Below, piece by piece: positions 4,871 to 52,704 of a stretch of 52,704 nucleotides of DNA (its first letter is position 1; each line of letters begins with the position of its first letter). A program made the position numbers and the translations under genes. The DNA is from Desulfarculales bacterium (GTDB lineage: Bacteria > Desulfobacterota > Desulfarculia > Desulfarculales > Desulfarculaceae): assembly GCA_031267815.1 (NCBI GenBank), contig JAIRYI010000072.1, positions 1 through 52,704 on the forward strand, read 5' to 3'. The notes below the pieces were generated by a model. It worked only from the letters and a program-made list of their open reading frames with translations. It searched no databases and was not told the origin of the DNA.

Positions 4871-5556
4871 AATTTTTCTCCAAAATTGAGTCCCCGCGAC
4901 GGACTGTTTGATTTTTCCCCTGAAAAACTGTTATTTTCCCCCAAGATTGCCTTGGGTCCGCAGTAAGAGGCCTGTCGCATATTGCAAATATGCGGAAACC
5001 AAAAGCTGAAGTTTTGGGATCGTTCCCGCCGCACCCCGCTCGCTTAAAAAGACAGTGAAAACGCTTTGCTAATGGGTACCGGCAATCCTTGATTTTGCCG
5101 CCGTCAAATTTAGGAGGCACATAAATTACATATCTGTAACAATTTTAATTTTTATTCTACGTTTTAGTAGATAATTTACTTGGCATATTAATTTTTGTCA
5201 ATCCCCCGCCCCGTTTTTCCCTGGCCCAAGCGCCTTTTTATCTGTTTTTCTTTTCTCCCGCATTTTATCCGCTCCTGGGGCTGTGTTTTTATTATGTGAT
5301 TTAACGTATAATTCGAAACGGTTATGTAACAGCGTCTGTTTATCCGCTTCTCTTTGTCCGCCGCCGTCATTTCAGCGGCATACAAGTTGCTTATAATTTT
5401 AACCGGCAGAGGTTAAAAATCTCTTGCCCCCAAATTTTTATAATATCAAATTTTGGGCATTGGGCAAAAATAAAATCAGGGTGGATTTTTTTGTCCGCTG
5501 GCATGGGTTGATCCCTCTGTCACCTTTAACCGCCAAAAATATAAGGAGATTTGTAA
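4871..5556. other. Intergenic region between divergent carA and glnN
   Basis: This 686-base gap separates two divergently transcribed genes and must hold both promoters. The only clear structure is a cluster of short hairpins at about 4940-5040, described separately as a diverged mosaic repeat. The part from 5120 to 5556 is AT-rich and contains TATAAT-like strings near 5392 and 5440, but none has a well-spaced -35 box. I found no match with correct spacing to a sigma-54 promoter or an NtrC site. The two open frames on the minus strand (4863-5120 and 5188-5385) have no ribosome site or recognisable protein signature and are taken as chance. Confidence 0.5.
4969..5032 (-). repeat. Diverged mosaic palindromic repeat, copy near carA
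   Basis: The stretch has two hairpins. CGCATAT (4976-4982) and ATATGCG (4988-4994) enclose a five-base loop. CCAAAA (4999-5004) and TTTTGG (5012-5017) enclose GCTGAAG. Read on the minus strand, 4999-5032 matches the core of the two copies at 21169-21403: GCGGCGGGAACGA, then the arms, then the loop CTTCAGC. The order GGCCTG, AT-rich palindrome, CTTCAGC-type hairpin, GCGGC recurs in the gap between amtB and the PII gene at 20071. No protein is encoded here. Confidence 0.6.
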
Positions 5557-14882: not shown

Positions 14883-15200
14883 ATGATACCGGGCGAATAT
14901 AAATTGCGGGATGAAGATATTGTTCTTAACCGGGGGCGCGCGGCGGTGGAAATAACCGTGGCCAACAGCGGGGACCGCCCGGTGCAAGTGGGGTCGCATT
15001 ATCATTTTTATGAGGTCAACCCGGCTTTGTTTTTTGAACGGGGGAAAGCCCTGGGCATGCGGCTGGATATTCCCGCCGGCACTTCGGTGCGCTTTGAGCC
15101 AGGCCAGTCGCGCCGGATAAGGCTGACCGCCTTTGCCGGCCAGCGGCTGATCTATGGCTTCCGCGGCGAAATTATGGGCCCGTGTCCGGAAAAGGAGTAA
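14883..15200 (+). CDS. ureB: Urease beta subunit
   Basis: The 105-residue protein is the beta-barrel subunit of urease. Family marks are MIPGEY at the start, [21 protein letters not shown] in the middle and the end [12 protein letters not shown]. The ATG at 14883 follows an AGAGAGGGTTT-type purine-rich site, 27 bases after ureA. The stop is 7 bases before the ureC start. Length and spacing match other three-subunit bacterial ureases. Confidence 0.96.
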
Positions 15201-15207
15201 AAAAATT

Positions 15208-16914
15208 ATGCTGGAAATAGGGCGCAAGCAGTATGCGGAAATATTCGGCCCCACTGCCGGAGACCGTATCCGCCTGGCGGACACGGAACTTTGGCTGGAA
15301 ATTGAGCGGGACTTGACTGTTTATGGCGATGAAGTGTCTTTTGGCGGCGGCAAGGTCATCCGTGACGGCATGGGGCAGAGCCAGCGCGCTCAGGCCGCGG
15401 ACACGGTGATCACCAATGCGGTGGTTATGGATGTCAGCGGCATAGTTAAAGCCGATGTGGGCATAAAAGACGGAAGAATTATGGCTCTGGGCAAAGCGGG
15501 CAACCCTGACGTCCAGGAAGGAGTTTCCCTGATTATCGGTCCCGGAACGGAAATTATCGCCGGAGAAGGATGCCTGCTGACCGCCGGAGGCGTTGACAGC
15601 CACATTCATTTTATTGCTCCCCAGCAGGTAAATGAGGCCCTGGCCAGCGGCATCACCACCATGGTGGGAGGAGGCACCGGCCCGGCCACCGGGACCAACG
15701 CCACTACTTGCACTCCCGGGGCCTGGCATCTGGCCCGCATGATCATGGCCACCAATAATATGCCCATGAATTTCGCTTTTTTGGGCAAAGGCAACGCCAG
15801 CACCCCGGAGGCGCTGCGGGAACAGCTTAAGGCCGGCGCCTGCGCCCTCAAACTGCACGAGGACTGGGGCAGCACCCCGGCGGCCATTGACTGCTGTCTG
15901 CGAGTGGCGGAGGAATACGGAGTCCAGGTGGCTATTCACACTGACACCTTGAATGAAAGCGGTTTTGTGGAGGATACTCTGGCCGCTTTCCAAGGGCGGA
16001 CTATTCATACCTACCATACCGAGGGCGCGGGAGGCGGGCATGCTCCAGATATTTTGAAGGTCTGTTCGCTGCCTTATGTTCTGCCTTCATCCACTAATCC
16101 CACCCGGCCCTACACCGTCAACACTATTGACGAACACCTGGATATGCTCATGGTCTGCCACCATCTCAATCCGTCTCTGCCGGAAGATGTGGCTTTTGCC
16201 GATTCGCGCATCCGGCGGGAAACCATCGCGGCTGAAGACATTTTGCATGATATGGGAGTGATTTCCATGCTCTCATCTGATTCACAGGCCATGGGCCGGG
16301 TGGGCGAGGTAATTATCCGCACCTGGCAGACCGCCCATAAAATGAAAATTCAGCGCGGAAGTCTGGAACAGGATAAGGACGGCAATGACAATTTCAGGAT
16401 AAAACGCTATTTAGCCAAATATACCGTCAATCCGGCCATCACTCACGGCCTGGAGAAAGAAGTAGGCTCGGTCGAAGCGGGAAAACTGGCTGATCTGGTT
16501 TTGTGGAAACCCGCTTTTTTCGGAGTCAAGCCGCATCTGGTCATCAAAAACGGGACTATTGCCATGGCGCCCATGGGCGACATTAATGCTTCCATTCCTA
16601 CCCCGCAGCCCTGTTGCTACCGGCCCATGTTCGGGGCTTTCGGCGCCGCCGGCGCCGCTTCCGGCCTGACCTTTGTCTGTCAGGCGGCTTTAGACGAGGG
16701 CCTGGAAAAACGGCTGCGCGCGCAAGGGGTCACCCGCCGGCTGACCGCCTGCGCCAATCCGCGGGGAAGATCTAAAAAAGATATGGTTCTCAACAGCGCC
16801 ACGCCTGAACTGGAGGTGGACGCGCAAACCTATGAAGTCCGGGCGGACGGACAACTGCTGACCTGTGAGCCGGCTTATGTGTTACCTATGGCTCAGCGAT
16901 ATTTCCTGTTTTAA
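15208..16914 (+). CDS. ureC: Urease alpha (catalytic) subunit
   Basis: UreC holds the di-nickel centre that hydrolyses urea to ammonia and carbamate. The protein is 568 residues from the ATG at 15208, where AAGGAG lies 8 bases upstream. A frame extension to 15154 lacks family support. All active-site residues are present: His132 and His134 (SHIHFI), carbamylated Lys215 and His217 (KLHEDWG), His244, His270, flap residues Cys317 and His318 (VCHHL) and Asp358 (SSDSQAMGR). Numbering is offset by two from the Klebsiella enzyme. No inactivating change is seen, so the enzyme should be functional if nickel is supplied. Confidence 0.98.
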
Positions 16915-20707: not shown

Positions 20708-20743
20708 CCTTTGCAAATTGCCGGCCACGGCAATTTGCAAAGG
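20708..20743 (+). repeat. Perfect 16-base inverted repeat
   Basis: Arms 20708-20723 (CCTTTGCAAATTGCCG) and 20728-20743 are perfectly complementary around the four-base loop GCCA. There is no T tract on either side. It lies between the end of the nitrogen block and the convergent small cysteine-rich gene. It could terminate either transcript or be part of the repeat mosaic that starts at 20623. Confidence 0.6.
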
Positions 20744-20808
20744 TATAGTCGGCAAAACATGGTTAAAGCCGGCTATGCTTTCATGACAAGATATTCGCAA
20801 AAGCGATT

Positions 20809-21027
20809 TTATTTTTTCTTGCTGGCGCGCTTGCTTGCTTTCAAGGGGTTGATTTTAGCCGCGCTTTTAGCTTCCGTTTTGACATGGGTGGCAAAATTGC
20901 ATACTCCCAGACGCCATTTGGCGGAAGGGTTGGGATAACTCTGGCAATATACCGATTCTCCCTCGGTCACAGTGCGGTCGCATCCCTGGCAGGAATCAAT
21001 AATGGGCAAAGCGGTTGGATTTAACAT
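20809..21027 (-). CDS. Small cysteine-rich protein with basic tail
   Basis: The 72-residue protein has Cys13, Cys16, Cys28 and Cys43, then His48, in the pattern CxxC...CxxYPxPxxKWRxGxCNxATH. The last 22 residues are rich in Lys, Ala and Ser. The Cys pattern suggests a small zinc- or iron-sulphur-binding fold, and the tail a nucleic-acid contact; both are inferences. I recall similar short proteins from Desulfovibrio-type genomes but no assigned function. The start is the ATG at 21027, with AAGGAG about 8 bases upstream. The overlapping plus-strand frame (20645-20938) lacks a ribosome site and is rejected in favour of this one. Confidence 0.7.
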   Translation of the reverse strand: MLNPTALPIIDSCQGCDRTVTEGESVYCQSYPNPSAKWRLGVCNFATHVKTEAKSAAKINPLKASKRASKKK

Positions 21028-21168
21028 AAAATTTCTCCTTATAGCAGCATAAAATTATTACGCTCACAGAAATAAACCCTAAACATAGCATCTTAACAGT
21101 TTTATGGCAAATTAAAATCAAACTTGCCCGCCCGGCGCGGAAACGGCCGTTATTATGGCCGGGCTTTA

Positions 21169-21264
21169 CCGCCATAGCGGCGGGAACGAACCCAAAACTT
21201 CAGCTTTGGGGCGATGTGATCCTCATAAATCACCTCCCAAGGTGATTTATGAAATGAACTCTAG
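21169..21264 (+). repeat. Mosaic palindromic repeat, copy 1 (96 bases)
   Basis: The unit contains three hairpins in a row. CCGC-CATA-GCGG is first. CCCAAA and TTTGGG around AACTTCAGC is second. The third has 12-base arms, TCATAAATCACC and its complement, around TCCCAA. It ends GAACTCTAG. It differs from copy 2 at five of 96 positions. None of the hairpins is followed by a T run, so simple termination does not explain the structure. Confidence 0.85.
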
Positions 21265-21303
21265 AAGTCATTAATGACTTCTAAGACCGGACAGCATGTC
21301 CGG
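21263..21303 (+). repeat. Palindrome pair linking the two repeat copies
   Basis: GAAGTCATTAATGACTTC (21263-21280) is a perfect 18-base palindrome. CCGGACA-GCA-TGTCCGG follows (21287-21303). The same two palindromes, in the same order and followed by the same CCGCCATAGCGG unit, occur at 43746-43790. Confidence 0.85.
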
Positions 21304-21307
21304 TACG

Positions 21308-21403
21308 CCGCCATAGCGGCGGGAATGAGCCCCAAACTTTAGCTTTGGGGCGATGTGATCTTCATAAATCACCTCCCAAGGTGATTTATGAAATGAACTC
21401 TAG
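21308..21403 (+). repeat. Mosaic palindromic repeat, copy 2 (96 bases)
   Basis: This is a direct repeat of 21169-21264 with five differences. Its middle hairpin is fully paired (CCCCAAA and TTTGGGG around CTTTAGC) and the last hairpin has 13-base arms (TTCATAAATCACC and its complement). It ends 38 bases before the start of the EAL gene, so it will be in or beside that gene's 5' leader. Confidence 0.85.
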
Positions 21404-21441: not shown

Positions 21442-24345
21442 ATGTCCAAAAAAGATTATCATCGCGCCGCCAGGGCGGAATATATTGTTCTGAAAGCATT
21501 AAACCGGTCTATAGCTGTTATTGAGTTTGCCCCCGATGGGACTGTTGTTGGAGCCAATAACCGCTTTTTAAAAGTATCCGGATACAGTGAAGAAGATTTG
21601 ATCGGCAAAAATCACAGTTTTCTCCGTCCCGGGGAGGCGGACGGTTTCCCTGACGCGCGGTTTTGGCAAAAACTGGCTGAGGGAGGGCAGGAGGCGGGCG
21701 TCTTCGCTTATCAGCGCCGGGACGGAAGCGCATTTTGGCTGGCCGCCAGTTATATTCCCGTCTTTTCCGCCGGCCGGGCCGTGGAACGGATTACAGCCTT
21801 CGGCATTGACATCAGCGAAACCCAAAAGAGCGGCGAAGAAATGGGAGCAAAATGGGCGTCCTTGGATCGCGCCCTGATTGCGGCCGATTGCCTGCCCAGC
21901 GGGGAAGTGGTGGCGGGCAACCAGAATTTTCTGAACGCCTGCGGTCTGAGCCGGTTCAGAGAGAGGGGGAAAAAGCCTCTTCTGCTTCTGCCGGGGCAAG
22001 ACGCCCAAGCTTCCGCCTGGGATGACGTCTGCCGCCGGATTACCGGCGGCCAGCCCTATTTTGCTTCCGCGGAGTTGCGCAGGGGCAAAAGCCGGCACAT
22101 ATGGCCGGAAGCCGCTTACGCGCCGTTTTACAATAAAGACGGGCAGTTGAGCAAAATTACCGTTTTTGCCGTCGCCATGCCCCGGCAGACGAAAGATGAG
22201 TCGAAAGTGGGGACGATGCTGCCCCTGCTGGCCAATATAACGGATAACGGAGTGATGATTGCCGACAGAGATAATCATCCTGTTTATATCAATTCCTTTT
22301 TCAGCCGGATAATGGGCTATCAGCCGGAGGAAATGACAGGAAAACCTTTTGGATCCATATTCGGCCCGGCGGAAAAAAGAGTACTCAAAAAAATCAGGGA
22401 TCATATTAAGGCGGGAACTACCTTCCGTTCGGAAGAAATGATTTATGGCCGTTCCGGCGGGCGGATGTGGAGCGCCGTAGTAACCAGCCCGATTACGAAC
22501 GGAGAGGGGCGGGATAAATACAGTATCAGCGTGTTCACCAATATCACTGACACTAAAGTGCGGGACCGCCTGCAGCAGAAAACTCTGGAAGCCCTGTGCG
22601 ATGGTCTGCCCAGCGCCAAGATTCTGAATATGATTTGCCGGGAGGCCGAATTTACCAGCCCTGAGATAATTGCCGCCGTCACCGTTTTGGATGAACAAGG
22701 CTGTATAAGTATGCTGGCCGGCCCCAGCCTGCCCGCCAGCTGTAAACAGGCCCTGAAAAATTTGGAAAATGAACCGCCCGCCGCCGGCAGCCTCCAACCG
22801 GAAAACGCCAACAGCCAGACGCGCCGCAAAGATGTCTGGGAAAGCTGCAATACCGCCTTTATGCTGGAAAACAGTTCATCCTACCTGTCCAGGGACATAT
22901 ATTATTCTGATACAGGCAACAAGGTGGGCGTATTAACTTTTTATTACCGCCACGGCCATACCCCCAGCGCCTTTCATCAGCGCCTGGCTGATATCATTGC
23001 CGGCATCTGCGGGGTGGTGCTGACGCGGGAAAACAACAGGACCACCATCCGCAAGCTGGCGTTGTACGATAAACTTACCGGTCTGCCCAGTTCAGAATTA
23101 TTTCTGGCCCAGGGGGAAAAAATGGCCGCCGGCTTCAAAGGGAAGCGCAAAATGCTGGCGGTTATTGTGCTGGGGATAGACAGGCTGAAACGCATTAATG
23201 ATACCATGGGACGATCGGTGGGCGACAAATTTTTGCATACCGCCAGTCTGCGTATCGCGGAGGTTATAGGTTCCCGCGGTCTGGCGGGGCGGATCTCAGG
23301 GGAAAAATTCGCTGTCATGCTGGGTGTGACCAATTTCAGTCAGGCCCTCAATCTGGCCAGCCGCCTGCAGGACGCCATATCCCAACCGTGGGAAAACGGC
23401 GCTGTGACCGTGTCAAGCAGCGTAAGCGCCGGCCTGAGTTTCTATCCTGATCAGGGGAGCGTTGTGGAAAAAGTCTTCGCCAACGCGCAGCTGGCTCTGA
23501 ATCAGGCCAGAAAAAAAGGAATGGGGCAACTGGAATGTTTCAGTGAAGAACTCAACGATATGGCCAGGCAACGCCTTTCTCTGGAGTATTTTTTACGGGA
23601 AGCGGTGGAGAAAAAAGAGTTTTCTCTTTTTTACCAGCCGCAGGTATTTTTGCAGAAGCACGGCCTGCACGGAGCGGAAGCCCTGTGCCGCTGGAATCAC
23701 CCGGTACTGGGCAATGTATCGCCCGATTTATTCATACCGGTGGCGGAGGAGAGTGATCTGATCAATTCTCTGGGAATGTGGACCTTGGATGAAGGCATGC
23801 GTCAGCTGAGTCAGTGGCGGAAAGCGGGAATTATGGTGCCCTCAGTTTCCATCAACCTTTCCTCTTTGAATTTTCGGGACGTCGCTTTGCCGGAAAGAAT
23901 CAGAGCCATGCTCAGAGAATACAAGCTTTCTCCCCAGGATTTGGTGCTGGAACTCACGGAAAGCATATTGCTGGATTCCAATCCCAACACTATGTCCACC
24001 ATGTACACAGTCCATGAATACGGCGTCCGCCTTTCCATGGATGACTTTGGCACCGGCTATTCCAGCTTGAGCTACTTGCGCCATTTGCCTGTAACCGAAC
24101 TGAAGCTGGACCGCAGTTTTGTATGGGATCTGGATGAAAATGAAACCAGCCGCCGCCTGAGTCAGGCTATTATGGCCATCGGCAACAGCCTGGATCTGAC
24201 CGTGGTGGCCGAGGGTATTGAAACTGAGCTGCAAAACCAGCTGCTTAGAAATCAAGGATATCATGTGGCTCAGGGCTATTTACAGTCAAGGCCGCTGCCG
24301 CCGGATGAATTCGTCAGATGGTATGACCGTTTTCGCCGCGCTTAA
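21442..24345 (+). CDS. PAS-PAS-PAS-GAF-GGDEF-EAL cyclic-di-GMP phosphodiesterase
   Basis: The 967-residue soluble protein has three PAS-like domains (about 15-130, 140-250, 260-375), a GAF-like region (about 380-530), a GGDEF domain (about 540-700) and an EAL domain (about 710-960). The GGDEF signature is degenerate (SGEKF near residue 620), so cyclase activity is unlikely and the domain may only bind GTP. The EAL domain keeps its key motifs: EAL near 747, ELTES, DDFGTGYS and VAEGIE. Hydrolysis of c-di-GMP is therefore expected. The arrangement resembles the oxygen sensor DosP of E. coli, but I cannot say whether a PAS domain binds haem. The ATG at 21442 follows GAGGAG. No membrane segment is seen. 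Confidence 0.9.
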   Translation: MSKKDYHRAARAEYIVLKALNRSIAVIEFAPDGTVVGANNRFLKVSGYSEEDLIGKNHSFLRPGEADGFPDARFWQKLAEGGQEAGVFAYQRRDGSAFWLAASYIPVFSAGRAVERITAFGIDISETQKSGEEMGAKWASLDRALIAADCLPSGEVVAGNQNFLNACGLSRFRERGKKPLLLLPGQDAQASAWDDVCRRITGGQPYFASAELRRGKSRHIWPEAAYAPFYNKDGQLSKITVFAVAMPRQTKDESKVGTMLPLLANITDNGVMIADRDNHPVYINSFFSRIMGYQPEEMTGKPFGSIFGPAEKRVLKKIRDHIKAGTTFRSEEMIYGRSGGRMWSAVVTSPITNGEGRDKYSISVFTNITDTKVRDRLQQKTLEALCDGLPSAKILNMICREAEFTSPEIIAAVTVLDEQGCISMLAGPSLPASCKQALKNLENEPPAAGSLQPENANSQTRRKDVWESCNTAFMLENSSSYLSRDIYYSDTGNKVGVLTFYYRHGHTPSAFHQRLADIIAGICGVVLTRENNRTTIRKLALYDKLTGLPSSELFLAQGEKMAAGFKGKRKMLAVIVLGIDRLKRINDTMGRSVGDKFLHTASLRIAEVIGSRGLAGRISGEKFAVMLGVTNFSQALNLASRLQDAISQPWENGAVTVSSSVSAGLSFYPDQGSVVEKVFANAQLALNQARKKGMGQLECFSEELNDMARQRLSLEYFLREAVEKKEFSLFYQPQVFLQKHGLHGAEALCRWNHPVLGNVSPDLFIPVAEESDLINSLGMWTLDEGMRQLSQWRKAGIMVPSVSINLSSLNFRDVALPERIRAMLREYKLSPQDLVLELTESILLDSNPNTMSTMYTVHEYGVRLSMDDFGTGYSSLSYLRHLPVTELKLDRSFVWDLDENETSRRLSQAIMAIGNSLDLTVVAEGIETELQNQLLRNQGYHVAQGYLQSRPLPPDEFVRWYDRFRRA

Positions 24346-43601: not shown

Positions 43602-43745
43602 TTTTAAACTCGCCTTAAGACCTTGCGGACAAGCTTATCTTTCAAGTTTAATTTTATTGGCGCAATTGTCAATATTAGCCGCCGCTTGCCGCTTTACGGT
43701 CGTCACCGCCCCGGTTTTTCAGTATACTTCTTTTCTATTATTGTA

Positions 43746-43906
43746 GAAGTCATTTCATAAATGACTTCTAAGGCCGGACAGCATGTCCGGCTTTGCCGCC
43801 ATAGCGGCGGGAACGAGCCTAAAACTTACACCGCGCCGCTTGAAAACGGCCGCCGCAAATAAATTGCGGCAAAGCCCTAAAATCGACCGGGATAAGCCGA
43901 TCCGCA
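43746..43906 (+). repeat. Mosaic palindromic repeat, copy before the MoxR gene
   Basis: In order, the stretch holds GAAGTCATT with its complement around a short loop (43746-43768) and CCGGACA-GCA-TGTCCGG (43774-43790). CCGCCATAGCGGCGGGAACGA follows from 43796, and the order is the same as at 21263-21330. The CTTCAGC hairpin is lost (AAAACTTACACC instead). From 43847 it carries the TAAATTG, GGCAAAGCCCT, GACCGGGATA block also found at 20623-20699. The copy thus joins two modules that are separate elsewhere. Confidence 0.8.
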
Positions 43907-48644: not shown

Positions 48645-48770
48645 ATCTTAGATGAAAAAATTTCCGTTTTGGACCCACCCCCCGCGCCGGGGAAAATGTC
48701 TAAAACTGTGCCTGATTATATCAGACTGGATAAAAACGGATATCCGTGCATAGTCGGATATACTCCATAA
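48645..48770 (+). pseudogene. Truncated fragment of the small gene at 51809
   Basis: Read in frame, this stretch encodes LDEKISVLDPPPAPGK, later DYIRLDKNGYP, then stops after CIVGYTP. It matches the first 40 residues of the gene at 51809 (DEKNSVLDPPPAPGK ... EYIRLDKNGYPRIGGF). It has no start codon and is cut at the point where the other copy enters its membrane helix. It is a broken duplicate that lies about 3.2 kb from its partner. Confidence 0.75.
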
Positions 48771-51808: not shown

Positions 51809-52027
51809 ATGTCAGATGAAAAAAATTCCGTTTTGGACCCACCCCCTGCGCCGGGGAAACCGGCTGAACCTGTGCCCGAGTATATCAGACTGGATAAAAA
51901 CGGATACCCGCGCATAGGTGGATTTTTATATGTAATTGCTGTTCTTCTTGTTTGGAGTTTCCTCTCCGTTAAGGATGCCCCGGCGGGAGTGGCGGCGCCC
52001 AAGTTCAGGGCGCATCGTGCTGGATAA
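51809..52027 (+). CDS. Truncated small membrane protein
   Basis: The 72-residue product starts MSDEKNSVLDPPPAPGKPAE, a Pro-rich cytoplasmic lead. It continues YPRIGGFLYVIAVLLVWSFL, one membrane helix, and ends in an unrelated-looking tail that overlaps the convergent gene. IGGFLY before a helix is reminiscent of the N-terminus of DUF2569-type membrane proteins, so the rest of a longer protein is probably lost from about 51975 on. AAGGAAATT lies 9 bases before the ATG. A more damaged copy of the first 40 codons is at 48645-48770. Confidence 0.5.
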   Translation: MSDEKNSVLDPPPAPGKPAEPVPEYIRLDKNGYPRIGGFLYVIAVLLVWSFLSVKDAPAGVAAPKFRAHRAG

Positions 52028-52704
52028 TCGCGTCAGTAATCAGCCAGGCATTGTTTTCCCGCAGCCAGTCCAGTTCCAGGATAACCGCCAGATTCACCGT
52101 GTGGCTGTCGTCCCGGCGTACCGTGGCCTCCATGCGGGCCCACATTTTGGCCCGGTCGGCTTTAATCAGCTCCACTTTGTTCTCCAGCAGGCGCAAAGAC
52201 GGGGTGGAGGCGGAATCTATCTGGGCGCGGTAGGCGTCGCTGAGTTGCTTGTGACCCAAGGTGCCCTGTTCTCCTTTGGGGCTGCGCATCAGCACATAAA
52301 CCTGAGGATGAAGGAAAGTCAGAATAATATCCCAGTCTTTAGCCCGGTAAGCGCCCATTATGCCTTTAAGGCGGCCTTCCAACAACTGGGGAACGGCTCT
52401 GCCGTCCGCTGTTCTTGAAGAGGAGGGACGGAGGGCGGGCGGAGGCGCAACAGAGGCAGGAGGAGTCGGCCCCGCTCCGGCGGAAGACCCGGCCGGAGGC
52501 GCAACAGAGGCGGGAGGAGTCTGCCCCGATCCTCCGGAAGACGCAGCCGGAGGCGCAACAGAGGCTGGAGGAGTCTGCCCCGATCCAACGGAAGACGTAG
52601 CCGGAGGCGCAACAGAGGCAGGAGGAGTCTGCCCCGATCCACCGGACGACGTAGCCGGAGGCGCAACAGAGGCAGGAGAGATCGGCCCCGCCCCGGCGGA
52701 AGAC
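52005..52704 (-). CDS. NTF2-like protein with Pro/Ala/Ser/Thr repeats, N-terminus beyond the window
   Basis: The frame enters from the window edge, so the start is not visible; 232 residues can be read. The first 95 or so are 18-residue repeats of the form APPAxSSxGSGQTPPASV. They are followed by about 125 residues of an NTF2/SnoaL-like domain with LEGRLKGIMGAYRAKDWDIIL near its start and WLRENNAWLITDAI at its end. Such a domain behind a flexible Pro-rich region is common in exported proteins, but the signal sequence, if any, is outside. The Arg/Leu-rich frame at 52358-52666 is the same repeat read out of frame. The 3' end overlaps the convergent truncated gene by 23 bases. Confidence 0.7.
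   Translation of the reverse strand, partial: SSAGAGPISPASVAPPATSSGGSGQTPPASVAPPATSSVGSGQTPPASVAPPAASSGGSGQTPPASVAPPAGSSAGAGPTPPASVAPPPALRPSSSRTADGRAVPQLLEGRLKGIMGAYRAKDWDIILTFLHPQVYVLMRSPKGEQGTLGHKQLSDAYRAQIDSASTPSLRLLENKVELIKADRAKMWARMEATVRRDDSHTVNLAVILELDWLRENNAWLITDAIIQHDAP
52441..52704. repeat. 54-bp tandem repeat inside the NTF2-like gene
   Basis: Units begin with GGAGGCGCAACAGAGG at 52441, 52495, 52549, 52603 and 52657, each exactly 54 bases apart. Four are complete and the fifth is cut by the window edge after 48 bases. Each encodes 18 residues on the minus strand. The unit length is a multiple of three, so copy number can change without breaking the frame. Confidence 0.95.

Follow-up and report, generated by a model that had tools for sequence, protein, structure and literature searches.

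Small hairpin-rich repeats of bacterial genomes are usually left unexplained, or they are filed as REPs or as terminators. The repeat described here resembles several systems that are better defined. RUP and the Correia/NEMIS elements are likewise shorter than 200 bp, carry no gene, lie between genes, have TA-ended terminal inverted repeats and a strong secondary structure, and likewise occur in tens to about 100 copies (PMC2229807, PMC3049150). The IS427 group of IS5 elements, mostly 832-865 bp in length, has terminal repeats of about 13-21 bp and makes 2-bp duplications (PMC3281130), and TAGAnnYCAT is the form of the ends in related IS5 elements, where the TGA stop codon of the transposase lies inside the right repeat. 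BOX of Streptococcus pneumoniae is a MITE-like repeat that is rich in hairpins and built from modules, the content of which varies, and the GTAG-type REPs, palindromes located between genes, often provide the preceding gene with its TAG stop codon (PMC3733652). Against this background, the repeat is a new bacterial MITE family with five successive hairpins, i.e. a new family of a kind of genomic parasite that is already known.

Layout and copy number of the element

The window, i.e. the whole stretch of 52,704 nucleotides that was analysed, belongs to a MAG of 2.38 Mb (109 contigs, 92% complete). The preliminary description had reported two 96-base repeats with five differences, each with three hairpins, and two further palindromes between them. 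On re-comparison, the cores at 21169-21264 and 21308-21403 are indeed identical at 91 of 96 positions and contain three hairpins each (hp3, hp4, hp5), and a scan of 21151-21403 for perfect, non-overlapping stems of 6 bp or more gave seven, whereas 1000 shuffles that preserved dinucleotides averaged 0.37 and never exceeded 3. The 96 bases are not the repeat unit, however: comparison of all copies delimits a unit of ~144 bp, arranged as TA-hp1-hp2-hp3-hp4-hp5-tail-TA, and 21151-21402 consists of two head-to-tail copies of it. The two palindromes do exist (hp1, 21262-21283, and hp2, 21286-21304), but it is the second copy that begins with them; the first copy is truncated within hp2. Written out, the order is hp1 (TAGAAGTCATTTcatAAATGACTTCTA), hp2 (ACGCCGGACAtgcTGTCCGGCGT), hp3 (GCCGCcataGCGGC), GGGAACGAG, hp4 (CCCAAAACTTCAGCTTTTGGG), GCGATGTGATCC, hp5 (TCATAAATCACCTnncAGGTGATTTATGA) and the tail (AATGAACTCTA). 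The ends are TA-bounded, imperfect terminal inverted repeats (TAGAAGTCATTTCATAAAT / TAGAGTTCATTTCATAAAT), and the outer ~20 bases of each end (TAGAAGTCATTTCATAAATGAC, TAGAGTTCATTTCATAAATCAC) are imperfect inverted repeats of one another. A transposase ORF is absent from the ~144 bp.

The upstream copy (21151-21263, plus strand; nhmmer E 5.5e-32, covariance model 103 bits) is 5'-truncated inside hairpin 2 and covers profile positions 36-144. The stem scan places its hairpin 4 (CCCAAAACTTCAGCTTTGGG) at 21191-21210 and its hairpin 5, with a 13-bp stem, at 21223-21252, and the right terminal inverted repeat (TAGAGTTCATTTCATAAATCAC) matches the pattern exactly on the minus strand at 21242-21263. 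The downstream copy (21262-21402, plus strand, 141 bp; nhmmer E 1.2e-44, covariance model 150.5 bits) is full length from TA to TA. In the same scan, its hairpin 1, which is the left terminal inverted repeat (TAGAAGTCATTAATGACTTCTA), lies at 21262-21283, hairpin 2 (ACCGGACAGCATGTCCGGT) at 21286-21304, hairpin 3 (core GCCGCCATAGCGGC) at 21306-21321, hairpin 4 at 21329-21351 and hairpin 5, with a 14-bp stem, at 21361-21392, followed by an exact minus-strand match of the right terminal inverted repeat (TAGAGTTCATTTCATAAATCAC) at 21381-21402. Both copies share the TA at 21262-21263 (ACTCTAGAAGTC). A tandem pair on contig C23 also has a single common TA, there mutated to CA. The four cores of the pairs on contigs C54 and C23 all have the CTCCCAAGG loop, with mutual identities of 89-92 in ~96 positions; the two pairs could possibly stem from one tandem dimer, and pairing the cores by position or by locus gave no distinction. 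The window pair lies between divergent genes, namely a PxxKW-family gene (20809-21027, minus strand) and a rightward PAS-GGDEF-EAL gene (21442-24345), whose start codon is ~39 bp past the end of the downstream copy; amtB and glnK are located further upstream.

That the module order recurs elsewhere in the window was also confirmed. A third copy at 43744-43827 (plus strand; blastn E 1.5e-20, also found by nhmmer) comprises hairpins 1-3 and half of hairpin 4, where it is truncated, and a fragment at 4999-5032 (minus strand; blastn E 4.7e-8, nhmmer E 2.6e-7) comprises the end of hairpin 3 and hairpin 4. Other repeats were seen in the window as well. Another dispersed palindrome (TTTGCAAATTGCCG...CGGCAATTTGCAAA) lies close to copies of the element (20713-20745, and at ~1215-1245 of locus L011), five 54-nt units (18 codons) stand head-to-tail at 52435-52704 and reach the window end, and a 115-nt direct repeat occurs twice, 3.2 kb apart, with 87% identity (48645-48759 and 51809-51923), one copy being ~135 bp from a tRNA gene. 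An Rfam match to 5_ureB_sRNA (15360-15637, minus strand), antisense to a 586-aa ORF (15154-16914), probably does not represent a true sRNA but reflects the conservation of a coding sequence for urease.

In its own genome, the family is abundant. The terminal-repeat pattern with up to 3 mismatches gave 66 matches, as compared to 0 for the reversed control; blastn gave 81 matches, nhmmer 51 non-redundant matches at E <=5e-3, and the covariance model 42 matches at E <=1e-3. The genome search with the repeat unit, which had been proposed as a check, thus returned ~50 non-redundant copies or fragments, nearly all of them between ORFs that are arranged in tandem, divergently or, in a few cases, convergently. 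The better copies are ~80-95% identical over up to 144 bp (blastn). Besides full-length copies, there are copies with truncated ends, internal deletions (hp1 is fused to hp5 in C87 and at C108:23218) and lone end palindromes (C86, C23:57483). The term “mosaic” was therefore too strong for what are full-length, truncated or internally deleted forms of one element; the variety results from degradation of one element rather than from a free shuffling of modules. A CRISPR-like repeat (GTTTCAATCCACGCCCCTATGTAAGGGGCGAC) was observed near a degenerate copy in this genome (C97:17830-18053, L132).

It had already been argued that ordinary terminators do not explain the hairpins, and we agree. Hairpins in intergenic DNA could in principle be terminators, or palindromes that arose by chance and are similar by coincidence, but ~50 copies with defined ends and the described degree of identity over up to 144 bp, the lack of T tracts, the divergent gene contexts and a number of hairpins that shuffles never reach leave this explanation with practically no probability. 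A search for GC stems followed by T tracts in the window region gave a single AT-rich, terminator-like match on the minus strand (1 found, 0.4 expected).

Terminal repeats, target site and proposed mobiliser

The distribution of the element is narrow. A DNA search of 40 relatives' genomes gave matches in its own genome and none in the other 39, and the covariance model, applied to 20 genomes of the family, was likewise positive in its own genome and negative in the other 19. Of 395 genomes sampled evenly across the phylum, its own was the only one with multiple copies, and viral contigs gave no matches. A pattern scan over GTDB contigs returned two isolated matches that are probably due to chance; this pattern left too little freedom in the bases that follow the common end and would miss the version found in G040. 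G040, a genome from a different family, was the one other genome detected when 63 genomes of the class were searched with the end sequence alone.

G040 contains 46 end matches (full pattern, 2 mismatches), mostly as opposed pairs 145 bp apart, and these belong to a MITE whose 19-bp ends are identical to the hp1 end of the window family. Beyond the end sequences, no homology between the two elements was found: their interiors are unrelated, and the G040 MITE folds into one long end-to-end hairpin. Judged from the ~96% identity of its copies, the G040 MITE would be the younger of the two. At six of the 20 G040 loci that were read, it is inserted in the loop of a repeated hairpin of which there are more than 200 further copies. 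The filled sites read gtctt-TAGAAG...CTTCTA-gtcacgg (L135, L147, L148; reverse in L136, L138, L139), while the empty loops read GGGGGTCTTTAGTCACGG, and the G040 MITE therefore duplicates TA on insertion. The landing site is itself a palindromic repeat, CCGGGGGTCTTTAGTCACGGAGC with long flanking stems, which is present in >220 copies (e.g. L167:1480-1680) that often face each other at a distance of ~128 bp.

At the G040 locus L150, the end common to the two MITEs is joined to a different interior, and the minus strand there encodes a 63-aa C-terminus that matches the NCBIfam model NF033580 of IS5 transposases with an E-value of 2.3e-15. The score is below the whole-protein cut-off because the sequence is a fragment. 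This C-terminus also matches annotated IS5 transposases on plasmids, and the TGA stop codon of the remnant lies inside the terminal repeat. Ends of this kind (TAGAnnYCAT, bounded by TA) also occur in two plasmid-borne IS5 elements: one on a Deinococcus plasmid, 839 bp from end to end, with ends TAGAGATCATCCGGAAAT (TA-GAGATCATCCGGAAAT), and one on a Leptospira plasmid with ends TAGAACCCATCTCAAAAA (TA-GAACCCATCTCAAAAA). From the form of the ends, the length and the 2-bp duplication, we infer that the mobiliser would belong to the IS427 group.

What does this mean for the window family? When its own genome (92% complete, 109 contigs) was searched with the IS5 transposase C-terminus, no match was obtained, and the family therefore looks orphaned in this assembly. 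An intact IS with exactly the window-family ends was not found, nor was an IS counterpart of the interior with hairpins 2-4. By analogy with the G040 ends, the window family would have been moved by the same kind of transposase, which may since have been lost or may be encoded in the unassembled part of the genome. Both ends of the element carry TA in the window's genome, and in-silico removal of one TA together with the element restored a TAA stop codon in all three testable copies (C23, C105, C86). Together with the common TA of the tandem pairs, this points indirectly to a TA duplication by the window family itself. On C86, two ends are ~1.1 kb apart, and a composite transposon was considered for this interval; it was rejected, as the interval is asd, a host gene (named from sequence, without a family search).

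We thus consider it very probable that the window repeats are head-to-tail copies of a ~144-bp non-autonomous transposon, a MITE, that was moved by an IS5-family, IS427-like transposase at TA. Mechanistically, a DDE transposase of this type, supplied in trans, would bind the terminal inverted repeats (TAGAnKTCATTTCATAAAT), and the element would be inserted at a TA that is thereby duplicated. A second insertion into the TA that borders a resident copy would then generate a tandem pair. The suggestion of a MITE-like intergenic family in the preliminary description thus holds as far as the ~50 copies, the terminal inverted repeats, the TA boundaries and the TA duplication by the same ends elsewhere are concerned.

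The alternative label given there, REP-like, does not apply in the strict sense. A REP- or BIME-type palindrome would be moved by a tyrosine (Y1, RAYT) transposase that acts on single-stranded hairpins, and the dominance of hairpins in the element, the presence of one Y1_Tnp gene in the genome and the fact that GTAG REPs also provide neighboring genes with TAG stop codons (PMC3733652) would fit. However, this sole Y1 gene (146 aa, C100:284-646, L031) is flanked by its own, unrelated IS200-type hairpins, with no copy of the element around it, the element has ~144 bp instead of 20-40 bp, with an inverted repeat at either end, and a GTAG tag is lacking, since the TAGA of the ends is mostly preceded by T or A. 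Moreover, the same ends duplicate TA in G040, and to our knowledge Y1 elements do not, so that a Y1-mediated mobilization appears very unlikely. An IS630/Tc1-type MITE with TA target, as proposed for RUP, would account for the TA boundaries, and two IS630 (DDE_3) fragments are indeed present on contigs C66 and C53. As these IS630 loci lack such a terminal repeat, and as the matching G040 end belongs to an IS5-family gene, we regard this origin as equally improbable.

Stem maintenance and placement at stop codons

In 31 copies, 89.9% of the stem cells pair, and two-sided changes are found in 27 cells as compared to 11.8 +/- 2.6 in shuffled controls, whereby cells are not independent events, as the copies are related. 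Counted by pairs, there are 14 versus 6.8 +/- 1.7. The result was similar with 15 copies, and the covariation score dropped from 0.080 to 0.033 or less when the partner was slid by 1-3 columns. The underlying alignment was made by sequence and not fitted to the structure, which was written from one aligned member, and a 74-row covariance-model alignment (A2) was left out of the pair counts, as its palindromes gave spurious minus-strand rows. In the test for covarying stems that had been proposed, compensatory changes thus exceed the shuffled controls; the hairpins are therefore maintained or corrected as the copies diverge. Template-switch correction of quasi-palindromes can give the same pattern without selection. 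Complementarity may be kept either by selection, for a cruciform or an RNA stem, or by such a template-switch correction. The covariation exceeds what a plain decaying MITE needs, and it is counted against the MITE explanation.

The second unusual aspect is the position of the copies relative to genes. Ten copies close a long open frame of 129-424 codons, as their terminal TAG is read in frame as its stop codon; among these genes are one for a NifH-like protein (C108) and asd (C86), the names of both having been taken from the sequence. Of 2423 TA sites outside ORFs in these loci, which served as a control that was defined within this analysis and not tuned further, 3.5% are the TA of such stop codons. 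The placement of the element at stop codons (10 of ~45-56 sites) is about six times this rate, with a binomial P of about 3e-6 to 2e-5. The simplest reason for the excess is purifying selection, as an insertion at this position leaves the protein unchanged. A more far-reaching idea is co-option of the MITE as a portable 3'-end module, whose own TAG would end the gene, with five stable stems behind it and internal hairpins that would be selected after insertion; we consider this rather unlikely.

Could the element be a structured RNA, as had also been suggested? It might be kept for its function in mRNA 3'-UTRs, for example as a stabiliser, a processing site or a terminator-like block, and mobility would then explain its origin only. 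The excess of compensatory changes and the ten copies that lie exactly at stop codons speak in favor of such a role. On the other hand, 21140-21403 has no Rfam match at gathering score and no T tract, many copies are located between divergent genes, the window pair among them, and a manual tally gave about equal numbers of copies in each orientation relative to tandem genes, without a clear strand bias. In addition, template-switch correction can keep palindromes complementary without selection, and the compensatory cells count related copies. A functional RNA is not needed as an explanation, and we judge it to be a fairly improbable reading of the family as a whole, although stem covariation lies above the shuffled controls.

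It is the complementarity of stems in many diverged copies, together with ten copies whose position matches the TA of a stop codon to the base, that goes beyond the routine description of another MITE. These two features permit a direct test for a target preference of the transposon, for purifying selection or for co-option at gene ends.

Comparison with known small repeats and IS5 elements

The ends tie the window repeat to IS5-family transposition and to the otherwise unrelated G040 MITE, which belongs to the same class but another family of bacteria and shares with it the identical 19-bp ends and a nearly identical length (145 bp); the TA duplication is shown for the G040 ends and would apply to the window family as well. 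The repeat can thus be named and annotated. An IS5-family transposase acting at TA most likely moved the window family, and this would be a difference to RUP, for which an IS630 mobiliser is presumed. Compared to RUP and Correia elements, the window element is also unrelated in sequence, and its five hairpins are separate and follow one another, where those elements have a single end-to-end stem. The IS427-group elements, with which it shares the form of the ends, contain a transposase, whereas the window element has none, has about one sixth of their length and has an unrelated interior. In comparison with BOX, which varies the copy number of its modules, the window family keeps one order of modules and varies by truncation or by internal deletions. 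REPs, finally, are 20-40 bp long, GTAG-tagged and linked to RAYT, none of which is true for the window element, and what the two have in common is that they are palindromes between genes and supply TAG stop codons to upstream genes.
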